From the NCBI GenBank assembly GCA_040755755.1, contig JBFLZW010000006.1, positions 77,982 to 141,981 on the forward strand: DNA of 64,000 nucleotides, in the 5' to 3' direction. Source of the DNA: a bacterium. GTDB lineage: Bacteria > SZUA-182 > DTGQ01. The notes beneath the pieces are model-generated. The model worked only from the letters and a program-made list of their open reading frames with translations, did not search any database and had not been told where the DNA came from. Positions within the stretch are counted from its first letter, which is position 1. Each line of letters starts with the position of its first letter. Made by a program: the position numbers and the translations under genes. This document shows positions 3,130 to 57,708 of this stretch, piece by piece.

Positions 3130-3191
3130 CTTTGGAGAAACCAGGCCCTCGGAATTATCACAGATGTTCCCCATCTTGTATGGGAGCCTCT

Positions 3192-3234
3192 CCTCAACTC
3201 CTCCCCCTTGATGGGGGAGTCTGGGTGGGGGTGA
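3192..3234. repeat. Dispersed CTCCCCCTTGA(N)GGGGGAG repeat
   Basis: CTCCCCCTTGATGGGGGAG forms a hairpin and is followed by CTGGGTGGGGGTGA. The same motif recurs at about 9108-9149 and, inverted, at 9290-9331. It occupies the gap between the caspase-like gene and the next gene. Confidence 0.7.
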
Positions 3235-3342
3235 TGGTTATCTTCACCATCCTCATGGAGAAAAGGAACATGGGGAACATCGGTAAACGTCACATCTTTT
3301 CCATCGGGAAACCCGCATGACCGTTGAGCAGGCGAACGTAAG

Positions 3343-4245
3343 ATGTCAGGCAGGAAGAGTAAAATCAGGATTACAACTAGACCTGAAGTATGGATTATTG
3401 TTATCCTGCTATACTGCATAGTCATCCCTTCCGTGCTTACGGCCCAAGATGTCACCTGGATTACCGCTGAAGGCACAGCCCCCCTGAAAAATACCGGCAA
3501 AGAAGAGGCCAGAAAACTGGCCCTGGAAGATGCCCTCCATAAAGCCCGCGAGAAAGCCGTAGCTGCCAATGTTTCAGCCCAGACCCTGATCGTTAATCTC
3601 AGACTCTCAGGCAGTATACTTGGCGCCATACCCTACGGCAGGGTAATTGAGCAGACAATAATCGAAGAGGGCGTCGAAGACGTGCACAAGGGCGATGGGA
3701 ATAAGGAAGGTAGTCAGGTGTACAGAGTCAGGATAAAGGCACGGGTTGCCGAGGAAACAACAGGCCAGGATCCCGATTTCAGGCTGGAGGTATCACTCAA
3801 CAAGTCCAGCTTCACCGAGGGCGAGGAGATGGTGATCACCATCAAAGCGACACGGGACTGCTGCCTTGCGGTTTTCAATCTCTTTGAGGATGATAAAATT
3901 CTCAGGCTTATCCCCAACCGGTTCAAACGGGATGTCCTGCTCAAAGCCGGTCAGCCCTTTCTTTTTCCCGATCAGAATGACATAAAAAAGGGCATAACTC
4001 TCAAAGTACATGTGCCGGAGGGCAGGGAAACTGTCAGAGAGTCATTCTATGTCCTGGCGCTCAAACAGCCCTTCCATCTCATCAACAATGACCAGTACCA
4101 GGAAGGCATTTTCGGCCTCTACAACGGCAAGGCAGCACTTATGAGCGATCTGATCGGGGAAATTGTTGATATCCCCTTTAGCCAGAGAGCGGAACAATTA
4201 GTGTCATATCAAATCAGGAAAAGCAGCAGGAGGATGTCCAATTAA
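3343..4245 (+). CDS. Exported LPP20-like/DUF4384 protein
   Basis: This 300-residue protein has a hydrophobic segment at about 16-35 that ends in VLTAQD, consistent with a signal peptide. Residues 38-150 contain a repeated Lys/Ala-rich helical region (EEARKLALEDALHKAREKA) like the LPP20/FlgT-type N-terminal domain. Residues of about 158-285 match the DUF4384 pattern: a start like FRLEVSLNKSSFTEGEEM, then CCLAVFNLFEDDKILRLIPN. DUF4384 domains commonly accompany bacterial caspase-like peptidases and protein kinases; their role is unknown. The ribosome-binding site before ATG 3343 is weak. It lies 213 bases after the caspase-like gene on the same strand. Confidence 0.75.
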   Translation: MSGRKSKIRITTRPEVWIIVILLYCIVIPSVLTAQDVTWITAEGTAPLKNTGKEEARKLALEDALHKAREKAVAANVSAQTLIVNLRLSGSILGAIPYGRVIEQTIIEEGVEDVHKGDGNKEGSQVYRVRIKARVAEETTGQDPDFRLEVSLNKSSFTEGEEMVITIKATRDCCLAVFNLFEDDKILRLIPNRFKRDVLLKAGQPFLFPDQNDIKKGITLKVHVPEGRETVRESFYVLALKQPFHLINNDQYQEGIFGLYNGKAALMSDLIGEIVDIPFSQRAEQLVSYQIRKSSRRMSN

Positions 4246-4752: not shown

Positions 4753-7700
4753 ATGAAGTGCCCTGACACGAGGATTCATCGTGATTTACCAATAGGTCGT
4801 ATAGTAGGTATCTATGGTGCATTGTGTGCGCTGCTTATTCTCCTTTCAGCCTGTGGTAGTAATTACTCTGAAGATACTGGTCATAACACAGGCTCGATAG
4901 GCTTTAGCCTCACCTGGGAGCGTCCTGAACAGTCTCCTGTCATTGGTCAATTCCCTGCCATTCGGACCAAAGCAGCGCCGGGCGGTGATTGTTGTGAAAG
5001 CTATGGAATAGAGTATATCAATGCTTATGTTTATAACGCAGCAGGTAAAGAAGTCGCTTCCAGAAACTGGCCCTGTTCTGCTGGACAAGGCACAATCTCC
5101 AATGTGCCTTCAGGAACTGGCCTTCGGGTCAGGATTGAAGGCACCATTACTGGCGCTGTTGTGTGGGAGGGGGAGAGAACGGGCATTTCCGTTATGGCTG
5201 GGCAGAGCACAAATGCAGGGGTAGTCTCTATGTCATATAAAGGCACTGATAAAACTCCACCAGTAGTTATCTCTTCAGTTCCCCTGAATGGAGCCATTGA
5301 TGTTCCTCTTACCCAACGTATAACAGTCACTTTCAACGAGGACGTGGCTCCACCCTCAGTGAATACCACAACTTTTACCCTGGTCAGTGGCTCAACCCTG
5401 ATAAGAGGCATAGTGACCTATGATGCTGACAGCAAGACCGCATCCTTCATACCGGCTGGCGGCAGCTTTTCTCCCTCGACAGCCTATACAGTAACTATAA
5501 CCAATGGGGTGGAGGACAGGGCTGGCAACTCTATGGCCTCAAATTATATCGGGAGTTTCACTACCGTTCCTCTCCAATCAGGCAGGACCCTATGGGCCTG
5601 GGGATGGAACGAGGAGGGTCAATTAGGAGATGGTGCCAATACTGATAAGAATACCCCTGTCCAGATCGGGACTGATAACCAATGGGTATCAATCGCAGCA
5701 GGATGGGCTCACACGGTAGCCCTTAAATCAGATGGAACCTTGTGGGCCTGGGGAAGGAACGATGTAGGCCAATTAGGAGATGGCACCAATAGTGATAAGA
5801 ATATCCCTGTCCAGATCGGGACTGATAACCAATGGGTATCAATTTCAGCAAATAGCGAATCCCATCATACCCTAGCCCTGAAATCAGATGGGACCTTATG
5901 GGCTTGGGGAAGGAACGATGCAGGCCAGTTAGGAGATGGCACCAATAGTGATAAGAATACTCCTGTTCAGATTGGGACTGATAACCAATGGGCAGCAATC
6001 GCAGCAGGATGGGGTAATTCGCTAGCCCTGAAATCAGATGGAACCTTGTGGGCCTGGGGAAGGAACGATGTAGGCCAATTAGGAGATGGCACCAATATTG
6101 ATAAAAATACCCCTGTTCGGATAGGGACCGATAACGAATGGATAGCAATTGCAGCCGGAGGCAAACACACGGTAGCCCTGAAATCAGACGGAACCTTATG
6201 GGCCTGGGGAAGGAACGAGGAGGGTCAATTAGGAGATGGTACCAATATTGATAAGAATACCCCTGTTCGGATAGGGACCGATAACAAATGGGTATCGATT
6301 GCAGAAGGGGGCTTTCACACCATAGCTCTGAAATCAGATGGGACCTTATGGGCCTGGGGAAGTAATGGTAGCGGCGAATTAGGAGATGGCACCAATATCG
6401 GGAAGAATATCCCCGTTCGGATAGGGACCGATAACAATTGGGTATCAATTGCAGCAGGATGGTTTTATACTACAGCTCTAAAATCAAATGGGACTTTATG
6501 GGCTTGGGGGAGTAATGGTAATGGCAAATTAGGAAATGGCACATATATTGATAAGAATACCCCTGTCCAAATAGGGACTGATGCTCAATGGATATCAATT
6601 GCAGCCGGATATTGTCATACTGCAGCCCTTAAATCAGGGAATATTGCTCATCCTTCTGCACCCACGCAGGTAAGTGCCACAGCAGGAGATGCAAAGGTAA
6701 CTATAAGTTGGCAGCCGGTTGAAATAAAATATGAAATAAATAGCCCTCCGGAAAACATTGCTTACAATCCTGCCGGGAGTGGATATCCTGATCCATCGGA
6801 GTCAGATCCAGGGTGGGGTGGCGGTAGCTGGCCTTGGCAAATGATCGATGGTTTGCGATGGTATGAGGGGCAATGGCAGGGGGGACTGGCGTTCACCGGT
6901 GGGACATCGAGTTGGGGAGGACCTTGTGGATGGAGGCAGGCAACAATAAACTTCGGAGAACCCAAGACATTTAACAGAGTTGCAGTATGGCATCACGGTT
7001 GTGGACATTTACCCAATACCTACAAAATCCAATACTGGGATGGAACAAACTGGATAGATGTATTTTCAACCGGCAGGGGACATGACTATCTGCCATTTCC
7101 AGAATTGTGCTGGTCAACGCCTACCGTAAATCTGTTCGATCCCGTAACATCGGATAAGGTGAGGCTTACCTTAAACAACTGCGATATGGATCATGGTTGG
7201 ATTTATGAGCTGGAGGTATATAATAACCCTCATCCTATCCCTGTATCATACGCTATTTACTGGTCGAAAAGTCCTGGAGTATCAAAGACCAACTATGAGG
7301 GCAAGATTGACGATATTACTGCCACCTCGTACACTCACACTGGCCTTATAAACGGCACGACTTACTATTACAGAGTCACAGCGAAAAATAGTTCGGGAGA
7401 AAGTGATATGTCAGATGAAGTATGGGCTAAGCCGGATAAGGTTACCTGGACTGAAAAGACTCCTATGCCCAATCCCGTTAGTGCTTTTGGTTATGCAGTG
7501 GTAGATGGAGTTATTTACATCATTGGCGGCGATAGCTCCGCGTCGAGCACGAGCACTGTCCAAAGGTACAATCCGGCAACTGATACCTGGCAATCGGACA
7601 CCGATCATGGTGGAACCTTAGCACCTTTACCAAAACCAAGGTCGTTATTATTTTGCGGTGTTATAAATAGAAAGATCCATGCCATAGGCGGGTGGGAGAA

Positions 7701-8289
7701 TGGCTCTTATAAAGGTGATCATTTCGTTTACGAACCAGATACCAATACCTGGCAAACCGGCCCATCAATTCCTCAGTGCCCTATCGGTCAATTTTCAGCA
7801 ACCATAAACAACAAAATATACGTTTTTGGAGGATGGAGGGGAATTTATAATAACCTTGTTTTCGAATATTCTGAAGAAACTGGTTGGTCTTCGAAGAGTC
7901 CTATGCCAACTCCAAGGAATCATGGGATTACTGGGGTATATGATGGAAAGCTCTATGTGATTGGAGGCCAGGGTGGACAGCCAGCGCAACAACAACCTTT
8001 GGATGTGGTTGAAATATATGATCCCCAAACTGATACCTGGTCTACTGGTTTAGCACCAATGCCCAGTCCGCAACATTGGTTAGGCAGCTCTGGTTCTCCA
8101 GTGCTCAATGGAATAATCTATGTTCTTGGGCCAGGGAATACAGCGTATAGTTACAATCCACAGTCTGATTCATGGGAAATACTGAATTCAATGCCTGATC
8201 CCACTTGCTCAGCTTCAGGAATTTCTGCAATCAACGACTCACTCTATGCAATAGGACCAAAACATACTTTCAAAGGCATACGTAATTAG
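4753..8289 (+). CDS. Giant surface lipoprotein: Ig-like, RCC1 repeats, split FN3 with discoidin-like insert, Kelch propeller
   Basis: This 1178-residue protein starts after AAGGAAG and has a lipobox LLSACGS, so Cys34 is the probable lipid anchor. Order of parts: an unassigned region 35-165; an SbsA-type Ig-like domain 170-275 ([18 protein letters not shown]); seven RCC1-type repeats of about 50 residues (LWAWG...GQLGDGT...DKNTPVQIG) at 276-630; an FN3 start ([20 protein letters not shown]); a discoidin-like insert with [20 protein letters not shown]; the FN3 end (YAIYWSKS to SDEVWAKP); and a Kelch propeller from about 905 onward. Both propeller types usually bind proteins or ligands. As the last gene of the caspase-like run, it is likely exposed at the cell surface. 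Role unknown. Confidence 0.85.
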
Positions 8290-8313
8290 CGAAGCCCTAT
8301 TGACCTGGCCTCT

Positions 8314-8560
8314 CTACCGCCTCCTCACAACCAGTCGAAACCCGGCCGCTTCAGAAGCAGCATCGGGCAGGAGGCTCCAGCGTCTGGCGGAGCAGCATCC
8401 CCGGGCATCAGTTGCCCAGTGGCCGCCGCGCATTACGCGCTCCGTGCCTTCTGGTGGTCCTTTGGGGGTCCGTAGCCGGGCCGTCGGGGTAAGGGGCATA
8501 CCAGTCCTGGCACCACTCGGCAACATTTCCTCTCCAGGTTCGAGGGTGATCCACTCTGCC
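8314..8560 (-). pseudogene. Broken SUMF1/formylglycine-generating-enzyme-like fragment
   Basis: On the minus strand one frame gives [19 protein letters not shown]. The next frame gives [17 protein letters not shown] and then AAGFRLVVRRR before a stop. Together these match the C-terminal half of SUMF1-type domains (GNVWEWCQDWY ... GTERVLRGGSW ... GFRLV). A single extra C in a run of five C's at about 8468-8472 separates the two frames. The N-terminal half is absent and an IS5-type remnant lies directly beyond. A sequencing error in the C run could explain the frameshift but not the missing half. Confidence 0.7.
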
Positions 8561-8663
8561 TGGTTAAGAGCCGAAAAATAACGGGAAGTATGATACACTA
8601 GATGAGGATAAATCAATATGTCAATGGAAAGCACTGCCTCGATGTCTTGGGGCAGCCAGCACG

Positions 8664-9104
8664 GTGCATGATCGATTCCAGGAGTGGGAGATAGGAGTGG
8701 CGGTAGATGGGGCCAATCGAGATGATAAGAAAATGATGCTCCCAACCCTGGAGGCTGATGTTATTGAGCCTCCAAAGCCCACAGAAGATAACCCAAGATA
8801 TACGGGATATTCTTATAGCCAGGGGATATATTCCTCAATGTGCGGGCTCGGGGGGAAGAATCAAAACAAAAGAGGGAAATCCCCAACTATCGGGCAAGAC
8901 GATGGGTAGTTGAACGTACTCACTCATGGCTCATGGCTCAATCGCTTTCGGCGATTACTTATCCGTTGGGAGAAAGAAGTTGACAATTATTTGGCTATGG
9001 TAGACTTCGCTTGCGCCTGGATCGTCTTCCATGCAGCAGGACTTTTCGGACAGGCTCTAATATTACAACGAGACTTTCAATTAATGAAAGAGGAATGGTC
9101 ATAA
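8664..9104 (+). pseudogene. IS5-family transposase remnant with multiple frameshifts
   Basis: One frame reads IGVAVDGANRDDKKMMLPTL and stops near 8908. The true continuation appears in other frames: ARRWVVERTHSWL near 8896-8933 and then SWLNRFRRLLIRWEKEVDNY. These motifs, ending in ACAWIVFHAAGLFG, are typical of the C-terminal DDE region of IS5-type transposases. An 8-base duplication (TCATGGCT repeated near 8926-8940) explains one shift. The 5' half of the gene is missing. It can no longer make a transposase. Confidence 0.75.
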
Positions 9105-9397
9105 TACATCACCCCCACCCAGCCTCCCCCCTCAAGGGGGAGGAGTATGGAGGACATCTTAAGGGGGAGGAGTTAGAAGACGCCTCACTTGCCACAGAGG
9201 GGGCTTCCCTGCTGCCGTATGGGCTCCCTGCTGCCAGAGGGACTTCCCTGCTATCGGGAGGGACTTCCCTGCCCCTTGAGGAGTAACTTCAATCCCTCCC
9301 CCTTGAGGGGGAGGTTAGGTGGGGGTGAATAAAACCAAGGGAGTCCTCTAACCACTCCTCTTATGTGAAGGGGAAAGGAAAAAGTCTCGTTGTAATA
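9061..9397. repeat. Nested inverted repeats (MITE-like) enclosing CCCCTCAAGGGG motifs
   Basis: TATTACAACGAGACTTT at 9061-9077 is exactly inverted at 9381-9397. Inside are two oppositely oriented copies of the CACCCCCACC...CTCCCCCTCAAGGGGGAGG repeat, at about 9108-9149 and 9290-9331. The centre (9190-9280) has four imperfect copies of GGGACTTCCCTGCT. No coding capacity is supported. The outer arms may be ends of the adjacent IS remnant or of a small non-autonomous element. Confidence 0.65.
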
Positions 9398-9757
9398 CTA
9401 AATGCCTGATTACTTATTTAGCGAGAGAACCATTTAGATTACCACAACCAATGAGAGGAACAGAAAAAAAATTTTTAATTGACAGTAATCCCTCAGCGAT
9501 GTACTCCGTCTTTTAATGCATAGTACTTTTGACATCCACTTCTTCTGCCTCGTGTACTTATTCCGCCACTGGATTGATAATTGGAAAACCACGATGATCA
9601 CCTGAAATTAAGGGAGGTGAGGATTCTATTTCGTAAATTGGATATTTACAAGCAGTAAATTTTCCTCAGCAGCGGGCTTTTATAAAGCTCATTCAGTAAT
9701 TATCTTGATTATCCTCAGATGTATGAGAGAATGTTTTATTTTTCAAGGGAGTATGAA
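9398..9757. other. Intergenic stretch, AT-rich, no gene seen
   Basis: This 360-base leader before the Thr-rich protein gene is AT-rich. It contains two TTGACA hexamers (near 9479 and 9528), neither with a convincing -10 box at the right distance. I see no open frame with a ribosome-binding site. Confidence 0.4.
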
Positions 9758-10279
9758 ATGAATTCAATGAAAAAGAACTGGTTAACCTTTGGTTTGATGA
9801 TTTTGGTGTTAGTGGCCTTAACGAGTGCAGCTCAAGCCCAATTTTATCCACCTATCGTGCCTCCCTTCTATGGGTATGGCTATAGTCCGGTGCCTCCGGG
9901 TTTCGGATATTATCCAGTGCCTTCGTCAGCCACTGTCGTGCCCTATGGATATCGCGGTCCCCACGCTCTGCTCACTACCCTGGCACTCCTGGGCCTTTTG
10001 CCAACGACTACAACTACTACCACACTTTTGCCGACGACTACAACCACCAGCACGCTTCTGCCGACCTACACTGTCCCCACTACCACGGTTCCAACCACGA
10101 CCGTTGGGACCACCACTGCTCTGCTGCTGGGCGGATCGATTTCCCCGACTACTGCTTTGCTGCTGTCTTCTACTACACCTACCACAACCTATCCTACGAC
10201 GACTTCTACCATTGGGACCACGACAGCTTTACTGCTGGGAGGCACCTCTACGACAACACTGCTGGCCCTGGGTATCTAA
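9758..10279 (+). CDS. Exported Thr-rich low-complexity protein
   Basis: ATG 9758 lies six bases after AAGGGAG at 9745-9751 and is preferred over an upstream in-frame start at 9719 that has no such site. Residues 1-26 form a clear signal peptide ending in SAAQAQ. A Pro/Tyr/Gly section (FYPPIVPPFYGYGYSPVPPG) follows. From about residue 80 the chain is made of Thr runs alternating with LLP, TALLLGG and TVPTTT. No cysteines or catalytic motifs are visible. It is probably a cell-surface or matrix protein. A hairpin terminator follows at 10336. It is the first of three low-complexity exported proteins in this region. Confidence 0.7.
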   Translation: MNSMKKNWLTFGLMILVLVALTSAAQAQFYPPIVPPFYGYGYSPVPPGFGYYPVPSSATVVPYGYRGPHALLTTLALLGLLPTTTTTTTLLPTTTTTSTLLPTYTVPTTTVPTTTVGTTTALLLGGSISPTTALLLSSTTPTTTYPTTTSTIGTTTALLLGGTSTTTLLALGI

Positions 10280-10335
10280 GCTCATAAGTAAGTAAATCAT
10301 AAAAAAGATCTAACGATCATCGTGCTTTTCACATA

Positions 10336-10388
10336 TCGCCTTTTCGGGCATTGAATATTAAACCCGGAAAGGCGAATTTTTTATTTTT
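10336..10388 (+). terminator. Rho-independent terminator after the Thr-rich protein
   Basis: TCGCCTTTTCGGG (10336-10348) pairs with CCCGGAAAGGCGA (10363-10375), with one G-T pair, and is followed by a T-rich run to 10388. Confidence 0.85.
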
Positions 10389-10498
10389 TGACTATTATCG
10401 GCCGACCTGGAGCCGATCAGAGAAATAGCAGAAAAAAACTATCGTTTCTCCCCGCTGATGTCAGGTTAAAACCGTCAAGATAACAGAAAGGGATAGAA

Positions 10499-13108
10499 GT
10501 GAGCATGAAGATTAATCCTGATCGAGGAGGATCGGCTCCATTTCCGGACTGGAGCAGGCTTATTGTTTTTCCTGTTTTTTTCCTCATGGCAGTCATGGCC
10601 GCGGGAGGCATGTCCTGGGCAGCAGGTGCCGATCCGGCGGTCCCCCCGCATCTCAATGTTCTGGTGATTACCATTGATACCTTACGAGCCGATCATCTTG
10701 GGTGTTACGGATATCAGGGAGTAAAGACTCCCAATATCGACACCCTGGCCCGGCAGGGAACAGTGTTCCAGCAGAGCTTCACTCCGGTTCCGGTTACCCT
10801 TCCCTCTCATGTTTCCATCTTCACCGGAACCTATCCTCCTTTTCATGGGGTCCGCAATAACGGGAATTTTATTCTTGACGCTCAGGCACTCACGCTGGCA
10901 GAGGTTCTGGCTGACCAGGGGTATCGGACGGCAGCGTTTATCGGAGCCTATGTCCTGGACTCTTATTACGGATTAGATCAGGGATTTCAATGGTATGATG
11001 ATGATTTTTCCGAAGGGGCAAGCAATGAGGAGGAATTGTATCAGGAAAAAAACGCCGAGCAGATCACCCGGGAGGCGGTGAAGTGGCTGGAGAACAACGG
11101 TCAATCCCGTTTTTTTATCTGGCTTCACTATTTCGATCCCCACTCACCCTACAGTCCGCCATCTCCCTTTCTGGAAGAATACCGCCAAAACCCCTACGAT
11201 GGGGAAATCGCCTATACCGACCACTGGCTTGGAGTTTTATTCCATAAGCTGCGGGAGCAGAAGCTCGACGACAAGACCCTGATCATTCTCACCTCAGACC
11301 ATGGTGAAAGCCTGGGAGAGCACAATGAGCTGACTCACGGAGTATTTATTTACGATGCTACCTTGCGGGTGCCTCTGATACTGAAGGGTGGTCCACTTCC
11401 TTCCTCCAAAACGGTTTCCTCCCAGGTCCGGACCCTGGACCTTATGCCAACCGTTTTACAGATCCTGGGAATCGACTGTCCAGGTTCAGTGCAGGGGAAG
11501 AGTCTGGTGAATTTAATCAATGGCCAGCCGGATAAAGAAGAGCGGGTTTTGTACTGCGAGTCCTATTTGCCGTATTACAATCATGGCTGGAGCCCGCTGG
11601 CAGGAATCCGGGCCGGTAATTGGAAATACATCAAGGCCCCGAAACCAGAGCTTTACGATCTTCAGAAAGACGCTGCGGAGAAGCAAAACCGGATCAGGGA
11701 GCTTTCGGCCACCCAGGATCAGATGGAAGCAAAGCTTAAGGCAATGCTATCTTCAATAGCCCCCCCCGAAATGAAAGGGGACCGGAAAGCGGAACCACAA
11801 GGTGATCATGCGCTCCCTGTGCCGGATCAGGATCGTCTGAAGAAGTTAATGAGCCTGGGATATATTTCCACTGCACCCGCCGGCAAGAAAAAAGATGGCT
11901 CTCTGGCTGACCCGAAGGATAAGATCGGGCTTATGGATTATTTAAACCGCGGCATGGGATTTTTGGAGGCCCGGGATCCCAACCAGGCGATCAGGGAGTT
12001 CAAAGCTTTGATCAGCCAGGATCCGCAAAATATTTTCGCTCATCTGATACTTGGCTCAACCTATTGTAAAGTTAAACTTTACGATTTGGCTTTAGAGGAG
12101 TTCACTACCGTTGCCCGGATGGATGATTCCTATATGGATATCCACAACCGGCTGGCCTCTGTCTATCAGATAAAGGGGATGAGCGACCGGGCTATTGAGG
12201 AATACAAGACAGCTATTCAGAAGTATCCCCGATGTGCGGAAAACTATAACCTTCTGGCCACGGTATATCTTGATATCCACCGCTATGATGAGGCTATCGA
12301 GCAATTGAAGGAAGGCATCAGACTTAAGCCCGGCTTTATCCGGGCCCATAATAACCTCGGACTGGCCTATGGCAGGAAAAAGAACTACGCTCTGGCCATA
12401 GAGGAGTTCCAGACTGCCCTGAAAAGCAGTCCTTCGATTGCTGAAATTTACAATAACCTGGGCTGTGTTTATCTGGAACTGGGTATCCTGCTCAACCAGA
12501 AAGAAAATATCCCTCAATTTCCCATCGATCCCCAGGAAATGGAAAAAATTTATCAGAAGATTCCGAATCTGCAGGACCATCCGGCCATAGCCTTTGATCT
12601 GGCCAGAGAGTCGTTTGAAAATTCCTTAAAGATTGATCCCCGATTCAAGGATGCCAGAATAAACCTGGGAATAGCTTACCTGAATGCCGGTTCCGGAGAC
12701 AAGGCCGTAGCTGAGTATAAAAAGATACTGGCCGATGATCCTTCGGATATCCAGTCCCGGTTGAATCTGGCTGTCGTGTATTTGCAGGGGGGGCAGGTTG
12801 AGCAGGGGAGGGAAAGCCTTCAGGAAGTCCTCATCCGGGACCCTAACAATATGCCTGCTCATTACTACCTTGGCTCAACCTACATGCAGGCAGGTCAAAT
12901 TGAAAACGCTCTTGCTGAATACCGCCGGATGGTTCAGATTCAGCCCCGGAATCCTGATGCTCATTTTTATCTGGGAGAGGCCTATCGGGCCAAAGGTCAA
13001 ACCAGGCAGGCCATTGAAGAGTATCAGCAATCACTGAAAATCAATCCCCTTCACATAAGAGCGCAGCAGAGCCTTTCCGCAGTGACCTTGAAAAATAACT
13101 CACCATGA
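10499..13108 (+). CDS. Membrane-anchored sulfatase-fold protein with TPR tail
   Basis: The 869-residue protein starts at GTG 10499 after AGAAAGGGA (ATG 10505 is an alternative). One hydrophobic segment at about 20-42 serves as signal or anchor. An alkaline-phosphatase/sulfatase-superfamily domain spans about 52-360. It contains the metal-site motifs VITIDTLRADHLGCYGY and LTSDHGESLGEHNELTHG. The usual Cys/Ser of the formylglycine site is not present: the corresponding stretch reads PVTLPSHVSIFTG, with Thr at the likely nucleophile position. It may therefore be a phosphatase/phosphodiesterase-like or inactive member rather than a true sulfatase. About nine TPR units fill 470-865 and probably bind partner proteins. 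Convergent or operon partners are not obvious. Confidence 0.8.
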   Translation: MSMKINPDRGGSAPFPDWSRLIVFPVFFLMAVMAAGGMSWAAGADPAVPPHLNVLVITIDTLRADHLGCYGYQGVKTPNIDTLARQGTVFQQSFTPVPVTLPSHVSIFTGTYPPFHGVRNNGNFILDAQALTLAEVLADQGYRTAAFIGAYVLDSYYGLDQGFQWYDDDFSEGASNEEELYQEKNAEQITREAVKWLENNGQSRFFIWLHYFDPHSPYSPPSPFLEEYRQNPYDGEIAYTDHWLGVLFHKLREQKLDDKTLIILTSDHGESLGEHNELTHGVFIYDATLRVPLILKGGPLPSSKTVSSQVRTLDLMPTVLQILGIDCPGSVQGKSLVNLINGQPDKEERVLYCESYLPYYNHGWSPLAGIRAGNWKYIKAPKPELYDLQKDAAEKQNRIRELSATQDQMEAKLKAMLSSIAPPEMKGDRKAEPQGDHALPVPDQDRLKKLMSLGYISTAPAGKKKDGSLADPKDKIGLMDYLNRGMGFLEARDPNQAIREFKALISQDPQNIFAHLILGSTYCKVKLYDLALEEFTTVARMDDSYMDIHNRLASVYQIKGMSDRAIEEYKTAIQKYPRCAENYNLLATVYLDIHRYDEAIEQLKEGIRLKPGFIRAHNNLGLAYGRKKNYALAIEEFQTALKSSPSIAEIYNNLGCVYLELGILLNQKENIPQFPIDPQEMEKIYQKIPNLQDHPAIAFDLARESFENSLKIDPRFKDARINLGIAYLNAGSGDKAVAEYKKILADDPSDIQSRLNLAVVYLQGGQVEQGRESLQEVLIRDPNNMPAHYYLGSTYMQAGQIENALAEYRRMVQIQPRNPDAHFYLGEAYRAKGQTRQAIEEYQQSLKINPLHIRAQQSLSAVTLKNNSP

Positions 13109-13208
13109 AATTCAAAATCGAATAAATCCTGCCGATATTCCGATAAGTATTGTTATCAAGGGTGAGGTGTGAGTATGTATTAACCAGTCAGGTGGAGGGG
13201 GAAAGCTG

Positions 13209-13418
13209 ATGAATACTTTGGAACATTACCAGCATGCGAACTATGCAAACCATACGGTCATGTCCGGGCCGAAAGAGTCAAACCCGATGAATAAAATTGA
13301 ATTTTCCATTCTGCCCAGAGAAAGGTTAGTGAGCGATATCGAGAAGCGGATGATGGCTGTCGAAAAGATGTTGTACAGGCTGGATAATGAGCCACCTGAT
13401 GAGAGAGTCACACCGTAA
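13209..13418 (+). CDS. Small protein of unknown function
   Basis: A 69-residue frame begins at ATG 13209 after a purine-rich GGAGGGGGAAAG. It is charged and mostly helical by composition, with the C-terminal part DIEKRMMAVEKMLYRLDNEP likely to form an amphipathic helix. No signal peptide, membrane segment or known motif is visible. It sits 100 bases after the sulfatase-fold gene on the same strand and could be co-transcribed. Evidence for coding is the ribosome-binding site and plausible composition only. Confidence 0.45.
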   Translation: MNTLEHYQHANYANHTVMSGPKESNPMNKIEFSILPRERLVSDIEKRMMAVEKMLYRLDNEPPDERVTP

Positions 13419-13556
13419 TCGGGACCCCAGGCGGTTCCTTTGCCTGCGTCTCTTTGCCGGTATTTTCATTTCCCTTCGATGAGGAGAGCAGGAATCCCCC
13501 GGTGGAGAGTCTTGTCACCACTTTATCTTTATTTTATAATTAGCCGATGTAAGAAT

Positions 13557-13586
13557 TTGACAATCGCCACACTTGTTTACTATACT
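13557..13586 (+). promoter_or_regulatory. Sigma-70-type promoter upstream of the multihaem cytochrome
   Basis: TTGACA at 13557-13562, an 18-base spacer and TATACT at 13581-13586. It would give a leader of nearly 400 bases before the cytochrome start at 13977. I looked for a cyclic-di-GMP riboswitch in that leader and did not recognise one. Confidence 0.55.
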
Positions 13587-13800
13587 ATAAATATAGCTGC
13601 CTATATAGATAGCTTATTCTGTTTATGTGTCCATGCCTTTCCTTTTTGAACTTGGAAGAGCTCTTCCTGGCGAGAACACGGGAGAGCGATTTTTTTTCAA
13701 TTCTGCAGATACGTAATTACTCAGGTAGATAGACTGCAGGTATTTGACTTGCAGAAAACCATTGAGAAAAACAGAAGCCGGAATGCAGGGAAAATGCTTT

Positions 13801-13846
13801 TATTCTGATTCCTGATTTCTGACTCCTGACTCCTGAATTCTCAAGA
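13801..13846. repeat. Dispersed GAATTC/AGGAGTCAGGAGTC repeat, copy 2
   Basis: The inverse orientation of copy 1: TTCTGACTCCTGACTCCTGA then ATTCTC. It lies within the 13419-13976 gap, whose remaining sequence is AT-rich and without a supported gene. Confidence 0.75.
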
Positions 13847-13976
13847 ATGCAGTTTCACCAACTTGCGTAATTATGCGGATAAAATTTTACCTCATACTTG
13901 ATGTGAGGAGGTATAATCCCCGGCTTTTCGACAGCCAAAAAAGAACAACTTATTTATGAGGTTAGTGAGGTTTACT

Positions 13977-16900
13977 ATGGTTAAAACAAGCAAAACGAAA
14001 CAAAAATTACCCTTATTCCAAGTAAACGCGGCCTGCTTCTTTTTCATGTCATTTATCATACTTTCCACTATCTTACCTTCGGCAACTCCATCTCTTGCCA
14101 ATCCCCTTTGCACTATACATCAGAGCAGCTCCCGAGGACCACAGGTCAACTGTACCTATTGCCATGCTGATCCCTATCCAGGATATCTCAATGACGGACT
14201 GCTCCTGGACGACACCACCGTCTGCGATCAATGCCACAGCCCGACAGGGCAATTTAACGGGACGGGGAGCGCCAAGGACAACTGGCAGGACGGGGGGGTG
14301 TATAACGGCAATCAATTAAAGCCGGGCAGGGAAAAATGGTGTGTCAACTGTCATGATGACGGAGCTTGTACGATCAATGGTGTTCCTGCACCCAATATTG
14401 CAGGTCTATCCATGAGCGGAGACTGGCAAAATTCGGCCACCATAGTGTATCCGACTGGCCCGGATGCGGGGAAAATCCTGGACGGGGACCCTGAAACCGG
14501 TATCAACAGCGGGGTAATTATCTTTGATCTGGGTGATCCTGCCGTCGTTTCTCATGTCAGGCTTTATACCGCTGCTGGGGAGTCGGCCCAATGGGAACTC
14601 TGGGGAGGAAACGATCTCAACACCTGGAGCAGAGTATTGCTTGGACCATCAGTGATTTATGCCGCACCGGTCTGGCTGACAGAGCTTGCAGGTGAATGGA
14701 ATGAAATCAGGCTGGATAAATTTATCCCGGTTCGGTACCTCAAACTGGTCAAGGCGAGTGCGTGGCCGCTCAGTGGAAATTACCTGCGCGAATTTGAATA
14801 CAAAAAGGACTTGCAATATGGCTACTACGTTACCGGCCATAAGATCGAATGCGATAACTGCCACGATCTGGCCAGCGTCCACATCGATGGTGAGAGCAGG
14901 ACCTACAGTGCCAGTGCCAGTCCCAACAACTACCAGGCAGGCTACCGCCTGAAGGACGTGGAGGTGGATGGAGAGATGAAGCCTCCGCTCGAGATTCCCC
15001 GGATAGGGTGCAACAGTGGGACAAATCCCAAAACCAGCAATGACTTTGCTCTCTGCTTCGCCTGCCATAATAAATATAAGCTCCTGGGTGATGCCTATGG
15101 AGCGGACCAATTTATGCAGGATCCCCTGGCTACGAATTTCCGCAATGACGATCATGTCGATGAAAACCTGAAGGTGAAAAACGAGCACCTTCGCCATCTC
15201 CAGGGAAGGGGCTACTGCGGTAACAGTAAGGACTGGGACTCTGACTGGGATGGTACCGGAGATTCACCTCAGAGCTGCACGGCCTGTCACAATGTTCACG
15301 GTTCTCCCTCTCCGGCCATGATCAGGCATGGAGAACTGGCCAGTACACCGGGCACTGCCAACAAATCTCCCCTGCTGAACTTTCAGTATCTCAAGAGAGG
15401 TGTGGAAGGAGATGTAACTGATTCGAGCCTGATGAGCGTTTCTGAAAGCGCTGGCGGACAGACCCAGTTCAGGGGATCGGGGCCAGGGACGATAGGGAAA
15501 AATCAGATGTGCAACATGTGTCATAATGATAAAATAACCTATCACCGTGAGCCGGTAACTTCACCCATCGCCCAGTGTCTGGACTGCCACACCACTGCGA
15601 GCGTAGCTGCAATCAATCCAAGTCATGCCACTCACCTGTCGGTGGATCCCCGTGGCCCGACCATTAGCTGCAAGATCTGCCATAGTGATTGCAGCCAAGG
15701 CAGCCCTCATCTGAAATTGATGGCTGATGGTAAATCATTACCAGAGACTACGGCCTGCGATATCTGTCATAGCAAGGACGGTGTCTTTGACGGAGTGAAC
15801 GATCAGGTGATCGGTGCTAAAATTAATTGGCAGGATGGAGTATACCAGAAGCCGGAACGCCTTGATCTGAAGCAAGGTCTGGAAAACTGGTGCGCCACTT
15901 GTCATGATGCGGGGACTTCACTCTGCAGCGAAGTATCGGCCCCGAACGTCATGGGGGATAACGCTACCTATGGTTATAATATCAATGGCCACAAAATCGC
16001 CTGCTCGGCCTGTCACGACCTGACCCTGGCCCACATTGATGCTGATGCCCGGACGTATTCGAAAAATTCCAATCCCCTGGATACCAGCGATCCTCATAAT
16101 TACCAGAATGGATATCGGTTGAAACACCGGATGATTATCCCTCTGACTATCGGCAACCAGGGATCCGATGTCAGGGCAAGGTTTGCCCTCTGCTTTGAAT
16201 GCCACGATTATGATAAAATCATGGATAGCAGCGCTCCGTATCAGACCAATTTCCAGGATGATGATGTCAACCGGCATCTTTACCATTTAAACGCCGGAAG
16301 AACAGCCTGGGATTCCGACTGGAATTACCTGCAGACGGACGATGAGCCTTTAGACTCCCGCCTGAGTTGTCCCGCCTGCCATAACGTACACGGTGCTCCC
16401 AATCCGGCCATGATTCGGCATGGTGAGTTAATCAGTACTCCCGGAACCCAGGATAAGGTGCCGGCTTTGGATTTTCGCTGGTACAAAGAGGATGGGTTTA
16501 CTCTGACCGTACTTGGTGAGGAGAGCCGCTATGGAGATATGCCGCCGCTTGGTGGAGCGGGAGAAGGATCCTTTGAGGATAACAGAGTATGCATTGGCTG
16601 TCATAGTGGCGGTAATCTTATCAAATATGACCGGGTCTATCAGCATATAACCATGCCTCAAGGTACCTGGGCCAAACCTCCGCTGCCCCCATCGGTGCGA
16701 ATCCTGAATCCGGTTTCAGGCAGCGAGGATGTGGCCGTAGATGGCAATTTGAGTTTTCTGCTTCTCTCAAACGGCCAGAATGCACTTGAGCTGGGCACCT
16801 TCTCGGTTTCCATTGAGGGGTCAATCTCCTATGACCAGAATTATCATTATGGCGATAGCGAACTTGAAGTTACCTCTCTTCCGTGGAGACCTCTGGATTA

Positions 16901-17825
16901 TCAGGTGACAGTCTTCCCCTCGGCTAATTTCGGTGATCAGGAAAGAATCACGGTGACTATTTCTGTCCAGGATAGTGCAGGCCACCGATTGACTTCTCCT
17001 GCCTGGTCCTTTATAACCAGCGGTTCCATTCCCGTGATCTGGAAGACTCCTCAGGCAGTGCGTACCGCAACCTTCTTCTATCCGGAACGCCTGATCGATG
17101 ATCAGCTGGAGACCGGAAATCCCTTTGCCGGGGGTGCTGCTCACTCAGTAGTTTTCGATTTGGGACAAAGCTATGAAGTAAGCTGGATTCGCCTACTGCT
17201 TCCTTCTCCTGAGTCTCGCAGGTGGACAATATGGGTGAGTGACGATCCGGAAAATTTCGGGACTGCCGTGAAATCGAACTGGATAGCTCAGCCATCCTGG
17301 ATTACGGTAGATAATACCGAGGCAACCTTTACGCCTGATTCTGATACCTGGCCTTCCTCGACCGCACCGGCCGGCTATATCGGAACCGATTATCAAACCT
17401 GCGCAACCTCAGCCAGTGGTGATACAGCCACCTGCACCTGGACCCCGCAGATTCCTGCGGAAGGGGATTACCTGGTTTATGCCCTCTGTATCAGCAGTGC
17501 CGACAGGGCTCCGGATGCGGTTTACACCATCAATTATGATGGCGGATCACAGTCAGTAACTGTAAACCAGCAGGGAGATGGAAAAGTGTGGAACTTTCTG
17601 GGTACCTATCATTTTGCTCAAGGAGATTCCGGCAGTATTATCCTGGGCAATGGATCCTCTTCTGACGGCTTCTTTGTAGTAGCGGATGCTATTCGGCTCG
17701 TTCCGGTGCCGGCATGGGTTCAAACTTCCGTCACTCCGAAAACAGGAAGGTATCTTAAGCTCTATACGGATATGGGGCCTTTATCTGAAGATACTATCAA
17801 GGAGGTTGACTTCGGCGGGAATTGA
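13977..17825 (+). CDS. Exported multihaem c-type cytochrome (15 CXXCH) with discoidin-like and golvesin-like domains
   Basis: ATG 13977 follows GTGAGG; an in-frame ATG at 13956 lacks a site. The 1282-residue product has a hydrophobic signal ending in PSLANP. Fifteen CXXCH haem-binding motifs are visible: CTYCH, CDQCH, CVNCH, CDNCH, CFACH, CTACH, CNMCH, CLDCH, CKICH, CDICH, CATCH, CSACH, CFECH, CPACH and CIGCH. The arrangement suggests an internally duplicated module. Two stretches (about 145-265 and 1020-1110) resemble discoidin-type carbohydrate-binding folds: IIFDLGDPAVVSHVRLYTAA and VVFDLGQSYEVSWIRLLLP. The region at about 1120-1240 resembles the golvesin C-terminal/xanthan-lyase-type domain, followed by a short discoidin-like end. 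It likely moves electrons at or beyond the outer membrane while attached to polysaccharide. That role is inferred. Confidence 0.85.
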   Translation: MVKTSKTKQKLPLFQVNAACFFFMSFIILSTILPSATPSLANPLCTIHQSSSRGPQVNCTYCHADPYPGYLNDGLLLDDTTVCDQCHSPTGQFNGTGSAKDNWQDGGVYNGNQLKPGREKWCVNCHDDGACTINGVPAPNIAGLSMSGDWQNSATIVYPTGPDAGKILDGDPETGINSGVIIFDLGDPAVVSHVRLYTAAGESAQWELWGGNDLNTWSRVLLGPSVIYAAPVWLTELAGEWNEIRLDKFIPVRYLKLVKASAWPLSGNYLREFEYKKDLQYGYYVTGHKIECDNCHDLASVHIDGESRTYSASASPNNYQAGYRLKDVEVDGEMKPPLEIPRIGCNSGTNPKTSNDFALCFACHNKYKLLGDAYGADQFMQDPLATNFRNDDHVDENLKVKNEHLRHLQGRGYCGNSKDWDSDWDGTGDSPQSCTACHNVHGSPSPAMIRHGELASTPGTANKSPLLNFQYLKRGVEGDVTDSSLMSVSESAGGQTQFRGSGPGTIGKNQMCNMCHNDKITYHREPVTSPIAQCLDCHTTASVAAINPSHATHLSVDPRGPTISCKICHSDCSQGSPHLKLMADGKSLPETTACDICHSKDGVFDGVNDQVIGAKINWQDGVYQKPERLDLKQGLENWCATCHDAGTSLCSEVSAPNVMGDNATYGYNINGHKIACSACHDLTLAHIDADARTYSKNSNPLDTSDPHNYQNGYRLKHRMIIPLTIGNQGSDVRARFALCFECHDYDKIMDSSAPYQTNFQDDDVNRHLYHLNAGRTAWDSDWNYLQTDDEPLDSRLSCPACHNVHGAPNPAMIRHGELISTPGTQDKVPALDFRWYKEDGFTLTVLGEESRYGDMPPLGGAGEGSFEDNRVCIGCHSGGNLIKYDRVYQHITMPQGTWAKPPLPPSVRILNPVSGSEDVAVDGNLSFLLLSNGQNALELGTFSVSIEGSISYDQNYHYGDSELEVTSLPWRPLDYQVTVFPSANFGDQERITVTISVQDSAGHRLTSPAWSFITSGSIPVIWKTPQAVRTATFFYPERLIDDQLETGNPFAGGAAHSVVFDLGQSYEVSWIRLLLPSPESRRWTIWVSDDPENFGTAVKSNWIAQPSWITVDNTEATFTPDSDTWPSSTAPAGYIGTDYQTCATSASGDTATCTWTPQIPAEGDYLVYALCISSADRAPDAVYTINYDGGSQSVTVNQQGDGKVWNFLGTYHFAQGDSGSIILGNGSSSDGFFVVADAIRLVPVPAWVQTSVTPKTGRYLKLYTDMGPLSEDTIKEVDFGGN

Positions 17826-17857
17826 TCAGCCGGTATAATTGATTATTCTGCCTTACC

Positions 17858-17890
17858 CTATCCATCTCCCCCAAAGGGGGAGATGGATAG
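17858..17890. repeat. Perfect 15-bp hairpin after the cytochrome gene
   Basis: CTATCCATCTCCCCC (17858-17872) is exactly inverted at 17876-17890 with loop AAA. It lies 33 bases past the cytochrome stop. There is no T-run, so it may stabilise the mRNA end or be another dispersed CCCC/GGGG repeat. A second C/G-rich motif lies at 17980-18015. Confidence 0.7.
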
Positions 17891-18187
17891 GCATTAACTT
17901 GACAATGGTAAATTAGCCAGCTTGCCTTAACCATACTGAACCACCTTAATAAGGTGAGCATCTTTTCTCCTGACGCCACTCACCCCAACCCTCTCCCCGG
18001 AGGGGCAAGGGAGAAAAACGCTGCCCCGAATTCTGGGCATGAACTCCGCTATCCCTTAATAGCATTGTATCCCCAAAGGGACGAGGGGGAAAAACGTTGC
18101 CCTTGCTCAGGCTCAATCCCCTGAGCCCAATGCAATGGGTGGAACTGGTTAATACGCAGGGAGTCTGTCATTTCGGAAGGGAAAACT

Positions 18188-18287
18188 AAAAGGGCCTTGT
18201 CTTTCGGCTTGTCATAAGCCTGTGAAGAGCAAGGCCCTTTGCTGAAATCAGGGGAATAAGGGGGGGATGGGAAAATTCCCCTGATTT
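18188..18287. terminator. Two consecutive strong hairpins between cytochrome and Tyr-rich gene
   Basis: Hairpin one pairs AAAGGGCCTTG (18189-18199) with CAAGGCCCTTT (18230-18240) and encloses an inner GGCTT/AAGCC stem at 18206-18220. Hairpin two pairs AAATCAGGGGAAT (18245-18257) with ATTCCCCTGATTT (18275-18287). They lie between two convergent genes, so a bidirectional terminator is likely. Confidence 0.6.
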
Positions 18288-18359
18288 TCATTTTATGATA
18301 GCTTACAGAACCTCATATCCATCCGGAGATCATTTCGGTTCCCCCCATACCGATTCCGG

Positions 18360-19385
18360 CTAGATTATTCCTAATCCCAGTAACGACAGGCTGGATAAGC
18401 CAGCCCCAGCCAACCCAAGGCCGCCAAGGCCACCCATGGCCAGTCCGGCCAGGGGATCCATGGCTATCCCGGCGGTCAGGGGATCTAATCCGTACAGTCC
18501 ACCGTATAAGCCTAATCCACCTAATCCAGCACCATACAGTCCCAGTCCGCCCAGGGCTGGGATTCCAGCTAATCCGCCTAATGCGGCACCATACAGTCCC
18601 AGTCCGCCCAATCCATACATTCCAGCGCCATACAATCCACCCAAGCCGTAGAGTCCAGCGCCGTACATTCCACCATAGAGTCCGGCTGTTCCGTAGAGGC
18701 TGCCGCCATAGAGTCCGCCATAAAGGCCGCTGCCATACACTCCGCCATAAACGCCCATCCCGCCGCCATAACCAGCATATCCACCGCTTGTGTAGGTGCT
18801 GTAGCCGTATCCACTGCCGTAGGGGGAGTATCCGCCGTATGAGCCATAGCTGCTGCCATAGGGGGAATAACCATAACTGCTGCCATAAGGAGAATAGCTG
18901 CCGTAGGTGCCGTATGTACTATAGGGAGAATAGCTGCCGTAGGGGGAGTATCCGCCATATGAGCCATAGCTGCCATAAGGGGAGTAACCATAGCTACTTC
19001 CATAGGGAGAATAGCTGCCATAGGTGCCGTATGTACTGTAGGGAGAATAGCTGCCATAGGTGCCGTATGTACTGTAGGGAGAATAGCTGCCATAGGTGCC
19101 GTATGTGCTGTAGGGAGAATAGCTGCCGTAGGTGCCGTATGTGCTGTAGGGAGAATAGCTGCCGTAGGTGCCGTATGTACTGTAGGGAGAATAGCTGCCA
19201 TAGGTGCCGTATGTACTGTAGGGAGAATAGCTGCCATAGGTGCTATAGCTGCTGGAATAAGGATAACTACTATACGTGGAGTAGTCGTACTGAGCCCGGG
19301 AAGAGGGAATAAAAACTATGAAATTCAGTATTAAAAGTAATGTCCAAAAACCTGGAAAGGTTAGATAGCAAGCTCTTCTCTTCAT
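18360..19385 (-). CDS. Exported Tyr/Ser/Gly tandem-repeat protein
   Basis: ATG 19385 lies ten bases downstream of AAGGAG at 19401-19396; longer frames to 19418 are less likely. The 341-residue product has a signal peptide (TLLLILNFIVFIPSSRAQ). The first half of the mature chain is a 12-residue repeat, YSPYSTYGTYGS, in about seven copies, degrading into YSPYGSSYG units. The second half changes to GGLYGAG/GLYGGxYG repeats and a Leu/Gly-rich C-terminus. It has no cysteine after the signal peptide. Such Tyr/Gly-rich chains resemble silk, resilin and prion-like matrix proteins in composition, but homology is not claimed. It converges on the multihaem cytochrome gene and is likely extracellular. 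Confidence 0.75.
   Translation of the reverse strand: MKRRACYLTFPGFWTLLLILNFIVFIPSSRAQYDYSTYSSYPYSSSYSTYGSYSPYSTYGTYGSYSPYSTYGTYGSYSPYSTYGTYGSYSPYSTYGTYGSYSPYSTYGTYGSYSPYSTYGTYGSYSPYGSSYGYSPYGSYGSYGGYSPYGSYSPYSTYGTYGSYSPYGSSYGYSPYGSSYGSYGGYSPYGSGYGYSTYTSGGYAGYGGGMGVYGGVYGSGLYGGLYGGSLYGTAGLYGGMYGAGLYGLGGLYGAGMYGLGGLGLYGAALGGLAGIPALGGLGLYGAGLGGLGLYGGLYGLDPLTAGIAMDPLAGLAMGGLGGLGLAGAGLSSLSLLGLGII
19007..19246. repeat. 36-bp tandem array inside the Tyr-rich protein gene
   Basis: Units beginning GAGAATAGCTGCC start at 19007, 19043, 19079, 19115, 19151, 19187 and 19223, exactly 36 bases apart and nearly identical. Being in-frame, gain or loss of units would change only protein length. Confidence 0.9.
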
Positions 19386-20188
19386 TATTTCCATGCTCCT
19401 TATAATTAGGTAAAACAAACGGTCTTGAGTTCCAGTAACCAGAATACTCCCATCTCAGCGTACAACTTATTTATTCATTCACCCCCCTTGTCCCCTATCC
19501 TGCACAGACTCACGCATACAGTGATCCAGCAGGTTCGCCCTCAAAGTCACTTTTTTTGCGATATCTGAAGAAGGCAGCAAAAAGAATGCCATAGAGCTTG
19601 GACCCTCATGTTATCCAGGATTTGTGGCAGGACAGGGCAGGTAAGGCTTATGTACATCCTTAAGTAGAATCTTTTCAAGAAATGGGATCGTAATATTTCA
19701 AGTTCCCTGGAATACTTTGGACTGAAAGTCCCTCCATTGACGCTGGCTTGCAGGAAATCATACAAAATATACTTTAATCATAAACCCTATGTCATTATTA
19801 TCCACTTTTTGAGAGTTGACATACCCTAATTCAGGGGGGACACATTTTTCCTAACCAGCTATTTTTTCTCCGGAAAGACGGATCAGCCCGGAAAAGAAAA
19901 TTTTTTCCGGATCTGGTGAAATATTTGCATAAAACTCCAGGGTAGAATGGAGAAGCTTTTTCAGCAGAGATATCTGTTTATTGTTTTGGTAAAGTAAATC
20001 ATGACTGGTAAGAAACCTTGTCATAACTATAAGCTTTAATGCAGCCTCTGGAGAGTTTTTTGACACTACCAGAGATATTTTATCAGCAGAGGAGGTGGAT
20101 AAAACCAGCGATTTTACTCGAGTTTTCAGGTTTTAGGGATCGTTTTAGGGACTATGTGGATTAATATTCGCTTTCTTGAGGTAGAAAT
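19386..20188. other. 800-base intergenic region between divergent repeat-protein genes
   Basis: The stretch separates the minus-strand Tyr-rich gene from the plus-strand GLYGG gene, so it must hold both promoters, but I see no convincing -35/-10 pair. A small hairpin CCGGAAAA/TTTTCCGG lies at 19888-19910. Open frames here have no ribosome-binding site or recognisable composition. Confidence 0.45.
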
Positions 20189-20929
20189 ATGAAGAGGGAG
20201 TTCTTGAATCTTTGTAAGGTGAGTTTGGTTCTTATCCTTTCTGTAATGTTACTTTCAGTTATGAGTGTCAGACAAGCCCATAGTTATTATGGAGGGCTGT
20301 ATGGAGGGCTGTATGGTGGACTATACGGCGGTCTGTATGGCGGTCTGTATGGCGGTCTGGGTGGTCTGTACGGCCTGAGCAGCCTTTATGGCGGCCTCTA
20401 TGGCATGTACGGCGGCCTCTACGGATTGTACGGTGGAGGCCTGTATGGGCTGTATGGCGCTTATAGCCCCTTTAGTCTCCAGAATATGTATTTCCCGATT
20501 CAAACCGGAACGGGCTTGACCTATCAGGTACCTTTCCTCCAGATCGCTCCGCTTCTTGGAATTGCGGGATTGTATAACAGCCTGTTTCCCAATTTGTTTG
20601 GTTCTTCCTCTTCTGGTTATGGGAGAGCTTCTCAGCAGGTTATCGCCGCTCTGTATACTGCTCTGACTACTGATCCGGTTCTGGGGCCGGTCCTCTTGGC
20701 TGATACAGTTACCTTGAATATTCTGGCCGCTGATGCCGTTCTGGCTGCAGTTGTCGCCGGAGACCCGTTATGGCTGTCTTTCCACGGCTGGCAGGTATTA
20801 CCACCGAATATTGTCCCTGCACAGCCTCTCTTGCTTTCAAAGATGGCGGTATCCTGTACTCAGTGTCATTCCAATGTAAACAGCGGCACTTTGTTAGCTG
20901 TTGTTCCACTGCCGACTCAGTTGATATAA
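20189..20929 (+). CDS. Exported GLYGG-repeat protein ending in a single c-type haem motif
   Basis: ATG 20189 follows GAGGT at 20179-20183. The 246-residue product has a signal peptide (VLILSVMLLSVMSVRQAHS). Residues 33-95 are repeats of GGLY with Gly, Leu and Tyr dominating. The middle (95-215) is a Leu/Ala-rich segment with LLGIAGLYNSLFPNLFGSSS and a hydrophobic helix-rich part. Near the end is SCTQCHSNVNSG, a c-type haem attachment motif with Cys223. A single CXXCH without other cytochrome landmarks could be accidental, but the neighbouring gene encodes a 15-haem cytochrome. The GLY repeats match the second half of the divergently oriented Tyr-rich protein, which suggests shared function. 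Confidence 0.75.
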   Translation: MKREFLNLCKVSLVLILSVMLLSVMSVRQAHSYYGGLYGGLYGGLYGGLYGGLYGGLGGLYGLSSLYGGLYGMYGGLYGLYGGGLYGLYGAYSPFSLQNMYFPIQTGTGLTYQVPFLQIAPLLGIAGLYNSLFPNLFGSSSSGYGRASQQVIAALYTALTTDPVLGPVLLADTVTLNILAADAVLAAVVAGDPLWLSFHGWQVLPPNIVPAQPLLLSKMAVSCTQCHSNVNSGTLLAVVPLPTQLI

Positions 20930-21043
20930 TGTGGAGGGTTTGAGAAAAGCACCATCTGGATTACCCTGATTAACGTCTGGTTATTTGATTGCAGAGGAAT
21001 TTCCATATTTCCATCGATGCAGGTTTCCAGGCGGTCTAAAAGC

Positions 21044-21094
21044 CCCCTCAGCCCTGCCTCTCCCCCCACAGGGGGCGAGGGGGCAGGGTGAGGG
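21044..21094. repeat. C/G-rich dispersed hairpin repeat
   Basis: CCTCAGCCCTGCCTCTCCCC pairs with GGGGGCGAGGGGGCAGGGTGAGG across CACA. It resembles the motif at 17980-18015. The rest of the 20930-21399 gap shows no supported gene. Confidence 0.6.
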
Positions 21095-21399
21095 GATATC
21101 TTTTGAGATCGAGGTGACCTATTATTTCTGTATCGGATGAGGAAAATTATAGCCGGCTTGACAGGCACGCCCGCAGGTTAAAAATATCAGAGAGAGGGTA
21201 GTGTCAGAAGTATCTCTTGCTCCCCTGGGAGAAGAGTCAAGGGGTGTGTTGAGAGAGAGATGGGCAGCCTTATGGTTATGGTAGGCCAGATAAAGGTGAT
21301 TGCTAGGTTTTCACTTTCAATCCCAGGTGATGGGAATGAGAGCCAGGCTCCTGCCTGATTGGGTCCGAGCCCGGAGAGACCCGGAGACGCCGGAGACCA

Positions 21400-52004: not shown

Positions 52005-52011
52005 CTTATCG

Positions 52012-54468: not shown

Positions 54469-54506
54469 ACGGGCATACAGATGAGCAGATTTACCTGATA
54501 AAAACC

Positions 54507-54548: not shown

Positions 54549-54580
54549 AGCCGGTGAAAACATATAAGTTAAGCTGCGTA

Positions 54581-57635: not shown

Positions 57636-57708
57636 ATCAGTATTCCTTTATTCTTTTTCCGTTTTATTTTTCAAAAGCATGTTTTTGGGAATTCTCTTCA
57701 AAGAGAAA

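Follow-up and report, generated by a model that had tools for sequence, protein, structure and literature searches.

A lineage-specific family of Gly-Leu-Tyr repeat proteins with a predicted haem-bearing member in an uncultured bacterial lineage

RESULTS AND DISCUSSION

A Gly-Leu-Tyr repeat protein with a haem c attachment motif

Within a 64,000-nucleotide stretch of bacterial DNA (contig JBFLZW010000006.1, positions 77,982 to 141,981; here called the window), we analyzed the genes between positions 9758 and 20929, one of which joins a Gly-Leu-Tyr (GLYGG) repeat block to a haem c attachment motif. The region had been described in an earlier note as three low-complexity exported proteins, a multihaem cytochrome with polysaccharide-type domains, and a GLYGG/haem hybrid, grouped within 11 kb as a candidate locus. 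The gene content was confirmed: the Thr-rich, Tyr-rich, and GLYGG/haem genes are present with secretory signals, and the cytochrome carries 15 CxxCH motifs. The window derives from a genome of 5.26 Mb in 88 contigs (G000), and nine genomes of its phylum-level group were compared, including a sister genome from the same genus (G001; metagenome-assembled genome [MAG] HOT.CON.50) and MAG CSMAG_150 (G002). MAGs may be incomplete. The longest open reading frame (ORF) was taken unless the signal sequence pointed to another start, and signal sequences and cleavage sites were called by eye. Each ORF could be aligned in frame with an ortholog in G001 at a ratio of nonsynonymous to synonymous substitutions (dN/dS) of 0.09 to 0.15, values that are approximate, with synonymous sites close to saturation. 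The frames are therefore selected coding frames and not artefacts of composition.

The GLYGG/haem gene (20189 to 20929, plus strand) encodes 246 aa and has orthologs in G001 (contig C157; 86% over module and tail) and G002 (contig C11; 66%). Its signal sequence (20189 to 20284) is predicted to be cleaved after RQAHS, ahead of YYGG. The low-complexity block that follows (20285 to 20461), encoded by a 12-bp tandem array, consists almost entirely of G, Y, and L and has no charged residue. Next comes a conserved module of about 46 aa (20462 to 20602; SPFxxQNMYYxIxTGTGLTYQVPFLQIAPLLGIAGLYNSLFPNLF) and then the haem tail (20603 to 20926), which holds Asp-led decapeptide-like repeats, an HGW motif, and a C-terminal CTQCH. 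The tail was found in three genomes (G000, G001, and G002) among 386 searched and is under purifying selection (ratio 0.12). A further match in G181 (E = 9e-4) belongs to a large unrelated protein without haem and was dismissed as spurious. Neither module nor tail matched a known family in Pfam, NCBIfam, or PDB sequences. The decapeptide-like repeats number four and span 20603 to 20785 (DPVLGPVLLA/DTVTLNILAA/DAVLAAVVAG/DPLWLSFHGW).

The mature protein contains two Cys residues, both in the CTQCH motif (residues 223 to 227; 20855 to 20869), and two His residues, that of the same motif and His199 of HGW (codon at 20783 to 20785). All four are invariant in the three orthologs, in which the motif reads CxQCH, so that one haem c with bis-His ligation is predicted, His199 being the predicted second ligand. 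With a conserved CxxCH in an exported protein, the product is a predicted c-type cytochrome.

The GLYGG-module family

The module defines an undescribed, paralogous family that is lineage specific. G000 and G001 have six copies each and G002 and G004 five each, whereas the rest of the 97 genomes searched had none. A scan of 84,980 genomes, in which the window's own genome was perhaps not included, returned three MAGs only, and the family was not found in viral contigs. In an alignment of 14 sequences, 13 of 50 columns are invariant. Members share one architecture, which the GLYGG/haem gene follows: a signal sequence, (GLYGG)n, the module, and an exchangeable tail. The tail is the haem domain (G000, G001, and G002), a beta-barrel of about 110 aa (G000 contigs C1 and C60; G001 contigs C46 and C12), or a short Thr/Pro stretch. 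Additional genes combine GLYGG with the barrel but lack the module, or consist of GLYGG by itself. The repeat is also evident at the DNA level, where GLYGG-coding sequence occurs 199 times in G000 compared with 24 times for the reversed pattern; G001, G002, and G004 had counts of 182, 82, and 69, and the remaining five genomes had low counts. Paralogs whose module leads into a predicted calycin-like barrel (with GxWxGxW ... DTGxxxxxL) in place of haem lie at L052:7998-8501, L053:7998-8516, L035:8984-9796, and L036:7925-8800.

The barrel was modeled with good local confidence (blocks with a predicted local distance difference test [pLDDT] score of 79 to 91) and shows weak similarity to calycin-like barrels. 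This ligand-binding type of fold as alternative cargo, together with the single haem, would fit a sensor, scavenger, or enzyme whose haem tail binds NO, CO, or peroxide or sequesters haem or iron at the cell surface, with the GLYGG block as no more than a flexible tether. However, two invariant His residues and no other candidate ligand suggest a six-coordinate haem of the electron-transfer type, and we consider such a role unlikely.

A Shine-Dalgarno-like leader element

All three low-complexity genes of the window carry a Shine-Dalgarno (SD)-like element far upstream of the start codon. It reads GAGGAGGTGG before the GLYGG/haem gene (20090 to 20097, plus strand, 98 nt upstream; AAAGGAGGTGC at -108 in the G001 ortholog) and AAGGGGGGTGA before the Tyr-rich gene (19479 to 19486, minus strand, 101 nt upstream; identical in the G001 ortholog). 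Before the Thr-rich gene, GGAGGTGA (9613 to 9620, plus strand) lies 145 nt from the start at 9758 and is distinct from the gene's own ribosome-binding site (RBS). In the upstream sequences inspected, the near-perfect anti-16S sequence AAGGAGGTGA was found 80 to 180 nt ahead of the start codon of genes that also have an ordinary RBS.

The heptamer GGAGGTG occurred between -45 and -220 in 23 of 52 low-complexity genes but only 4 of 212 others (Fisher test, P = 5e-15; 8 of 17 versus 2 of 102 in G000 alone, P = 1e-6), one of the four being the window's Thr-rich gene; these P values are optimistic, as family members are not independent. A stricter pattern, applied after Thr-rich genes had been excluded and the starts of signal-peptide-like genes refined in the same way throughout, gave 21 of 52 (~40%) versus 3 of 211 and no antisense occurrence in any class. 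Compared with other signal-peptide-like genes, the enrichment persisted (21 of 52 versus 2 of 38; P = 1.5e-4, likewise optimistic). An unbiased genome-wide scan returned 56 exact sites and 21 for the reversed control. Fifty-five sites were classified by script: 10 are ordinary RBSs, 9 lie inside ORFs, 13 are unassigned, and about 22 are located 83 to 217 nt before start codons that have their own RBS. The genes behind these 22 sites include five of the GLYGG type and groES, the remainder coding mostly for exported proteins (names from reading the sequence).

In the window-wide list of sites, neither the cytochrome nor the sulfatase-like gene has one upstream. Counted over the whole window, the motif is no more frequent than chance allows (7 found, 5.5 expected); what distinguishes it is its position and the class of gene it precedes. 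By eye, a role as ribosome site for a short ORF in the leader suits some genes (MNK-stop/MNT-stop for the Tyr-rich gene) but not others. Rfam searches revealed no known RNA element in window positions 8000 to 21200 (E ≤ 0.5) and, at gathering score, none except one tRNA in 16 further loci. A four-member Pro-rich exported family (NWMAMPPYNTLWPLWSP...; L146, L156, L161, and L170) has the leader element in common.

The arrangement corresponds to STAB-SD, an SD-like sequence in the sense strand far upstream of the start codon. In Bacillus cry3A mRNA, a strong anti-16S sequence about 100 to 130 nt upstream of the start codon, apart from the RBS, precedes a highly expressed product and stabilizes the message (PMC4113751). 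Here it is found in another phylum and precedes an entire set of genes for exported proteins as well as groES. By analogy with cry3A, the element probably stabilizes these mRNAs for high output. It also offers a sequence handle for finding further exported, probably highly expressed proteins of this uncultured lineage.

Two separable gene blocks

Conservation of the 11-kb region as one unit was ruled out by synteny in G001 and G002. In G001, the Thr-rich, sulfatase-like, and 15-haem genes form one block (contig C41), while the divergent Tyr-rich and GLYGG/haem genes form another (contig C157) that has no cytochrome neighbor. The single-locus idea thus survives in part: each block is kept within the genus, including the Tyr-rich and GLYGG/haem pair, but the whole is not. 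In G001 the scaffold pair adjoins a phosphomannomutase-like/PilM-like cluster, which in G000 lies about 32 kb away from it (names by sequence impression). The 15-haem cytochrome and the sulfatase-like gene form a separate conserved block that would have come to adjoin the scaffold genes in G000 through genome rearrangement. G003 has the 15-haem family but lacks the GLYGG-module family.

In G002, the GLYGG/haem gene stands tail to tail with unrelated 8-, 8-, and 4-haem cytochrome genes. Homologous 8-haem genes in G000 (C58), G001 (C170), and G003 (C582) share AsnS-like and acyltransferase-like neighbors, which G002 has too; the AsnS-like gene is a conserved neighbor of 8-haem cytochromes in four genomes. 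The 8-haem cytochromes beside it, again in four genomes, carry low-complexity C-terminal tails (L126:3546-5084, L127:4610-6166, L128:4077-5699, and L032:14786-18629). In the surroundings of GLYGG genes in G000 (about 265 kb sampled), no gene except the window cytochrome has three or more CxxCH motifs. A corresponding 152 kb of G001 has no such gene, and the G002 sample only those beside the GLYGG/haem gene. Picked in this way, the samples test neighborhood and not genome-wide density. That two of three GLYGG/haem genes lie near a cytochrome is suggestive, yet the cytochromes differ and the third gene has none.

The earlier note had proposed a conductive matrix; in this reading, the Tyr-rich and GLYGG scaffolds bear haem and act with the 15-haem cytochrome in passing electrons. 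Three genomes indeed keep a GLYGG scaffold with haem, multihaem cytochromes adjoin it in G000 and, from a different family, in G002, and multihaem genes are abundant in these genomes (46 close CxxCH pairs in G000). However, joint conservation of scaffold and cytochrome was not observed in the neighborhoods of G001, G002, and G003 or elsewhere in the 265-kb sample, and the leader element, present before each of the three low-complexity genes, is absent upstream of the cytochrome and sulfatase-like genes. Among many GLYGG proteins, only one bears haem, and a single haem per chain of about 25 kDa beside one multihaem gene does not demonstrate conduction. The 15-haem protein resembles the MtrC/MtrF and OmcS-type outer-surface cytochromes of metal reducers in local matches to MtrC/F II/IV and C7-type models but differs in its 15 haems, its carbohydrate-type domains, and the lack of a lipobox; the GLYGG/haem protein is unrelated to them. 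The conduit protein MtrB/PioB (PF11854) had no match in G000 or G001 and a weak one in G002, so the system does not qualify as MtrCAB type. We regard conduction as improbable.

A candidate secreted structural material

The GLYGG repeat is nearly the same as the amorphous block of squid ring-teeth proteins (suckerins), YGYGGLYGGLYGGLGY (PMC4555047, PMC6393770). The GLYGG proteins contain GGLYGG repeats and, like suckerins, are dominated by Gly and Tyr, uncharged, and putatively secreted structural material. Suckerins, however, are animal proteins in which such stretches alternate with Ala/Ser/His-rich beta-sheet blocks, whereas GLYGG proteins lack these and have one repeat block followed by a conserved module and cargo tails. 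The likeness is one of material type by convergence and not of homology. Nothing relevant on Gly/Tyr-rich or haem-bearing matrix proteins of bacteria turned up in the literature searched.

Because the repeat matches the squid amorphous block, the best reading of the family, to which we give about an even chance, is a cohesive secreted matrix, sheath, or adhesive with haem as decoration. On this view, the lineage-specific family would consist of secreted structural proteins, and the GLYGG/haem gene would encode the member with haem. Once exported by the Sec route, the proteins may owe flexible, Tyr-hydrogen-bonded cohesion to the Gly-Leu-Tyr block, and the module, weakly predicted as a beta-hairpin plus helix, could serve all members for assembly or anchoring. 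The variable C terminus would then be cargo: the mono-haem domain, the calycin-like barrel, or a short tail. Such proteins would make up a matrix, sheath, or adhesive at the cell surface, with one bis-His haem c protein built in as a redox or haem-binding decoration.

Three observations count against this interpretation. Crystalline blocks rich in Ala, Val, Ser, Thr, and His are absent from 15 aligned members and the wider GLYGG set. The AlphaFold model of module and haem tail is of low confidence (mean pLDDT, 48.7). In two of three genomes, multihaem cytochromes are found close to the haem-bearing GLYGG gene, so that a functional tie is conceivable. A squid-ring-teeth-like bacterial material whose dedicated haem subunit makes the matrix redox active, wired to surface multihaem cytochromes, appears quite doubtful to us. 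The proteins may instead be periplasmic or outer-membrane-attached space-fillers, as a Sec-type signal alone is visible and no lipobox or sorting domain was recognized. The many paralogs, the high-output type of leader, and the composition typical of extracellular structural proteins argue otherwise, and seven secretins in the genome mean that an outer-membrane route exists; space-filling is therefore rather unlikely.

If the cohesive-material interpretation is true, the family would represent, in a bacterium, a genome-encoded equivalent of an animal biomaterial that is already well studied, and different cargo domains, haem included, would be attached to a shared module. The design of functional protein materials would gain a principle ready for use, and the question of whether redox-active matrices are built by bacteria would become open to experiment.

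Other genes of the region

The Tyr/Ser/Gly-rich exported protein (18360 to 19418, minus strand) probably starts at 19385 (MKRRACYL...SSRA|QYDY). It holds seven exact copies of YSPYSTYGTYGS, encoded by a 36-bp tandem array (Tandem Repeats Finder score, 459), followed by GLYGG-type blocks, and the C terminus ...LSSLSLLGLGII is conserved. Its G001 ortholog (76%) retains the divergent arrangement.

The Thr/Pro/Leu-rich exported protein (9758 to 10279, plus strand, 173 aa; longest ORF from 9719) has the signal ...TSAAQA|QFYPP and ends in ...TTTLLALGI. No Pfam or NCBIfam family matched it, and its G001 ortholog adjoins the same sulfatase-like and 15-haem genes.

Between these lies a gene absent from the earlier note and kept on G001 contig C41 (10499 to 13108, plus strand), coding for an exported protein with an alkaline-phosphatase-superfamily, sulfatase-like domain (PF00884, E = 9e-48) and TPR repeats. 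Sulfatases share the consensus [CS]xP[SA]R, in which Cys or Ser is converted to formylglycine. Here that position is occupied by Thr (VTLPSHVSIFTG; the motif site reads TLPSH), so an alkaline-phosphatase-superfamily activity other than sulfatase is probable.

The cytochrome (13956 to 17825, plus strand, 1289 aa) carries its 15 CxxCH motifs in residues 66 to 883. The polysaccharide-type domains once assigned to it hold for a Golvesin_C/xanthan-lyase-type region (residues 1116 to 1249; PF25275, E = 2e-31; phmmer 4e-19 against Paenibacillus xanthan lyase 6f2p), whereas the F5/8 type C-like region (about 150 to 270) is weak and under the curated cutoff. Residues 911 to 1021 match Big_5 weakly. The ortholog on G001 contig C41 matches over the full length (72%), and paralogs occur in G000 and G003.

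Elsewhere in the window, a caspase-like peptidase (PF00656) is followed by a DUF4384 protein (1843 to 4245), and a large lipoprotein-like RCC1/Kelch protein with a Big_5 domain (4753 to 8289) precedes the region described here. Two ABC-auxiliary, GldG-like proteins (PF09822) lie by a polysaccharide synthesis and export cluster (49437 to 63933; Wzz, polysaccharide export, Polysacc_synt_2, Wzy, and glycosyltransferase).

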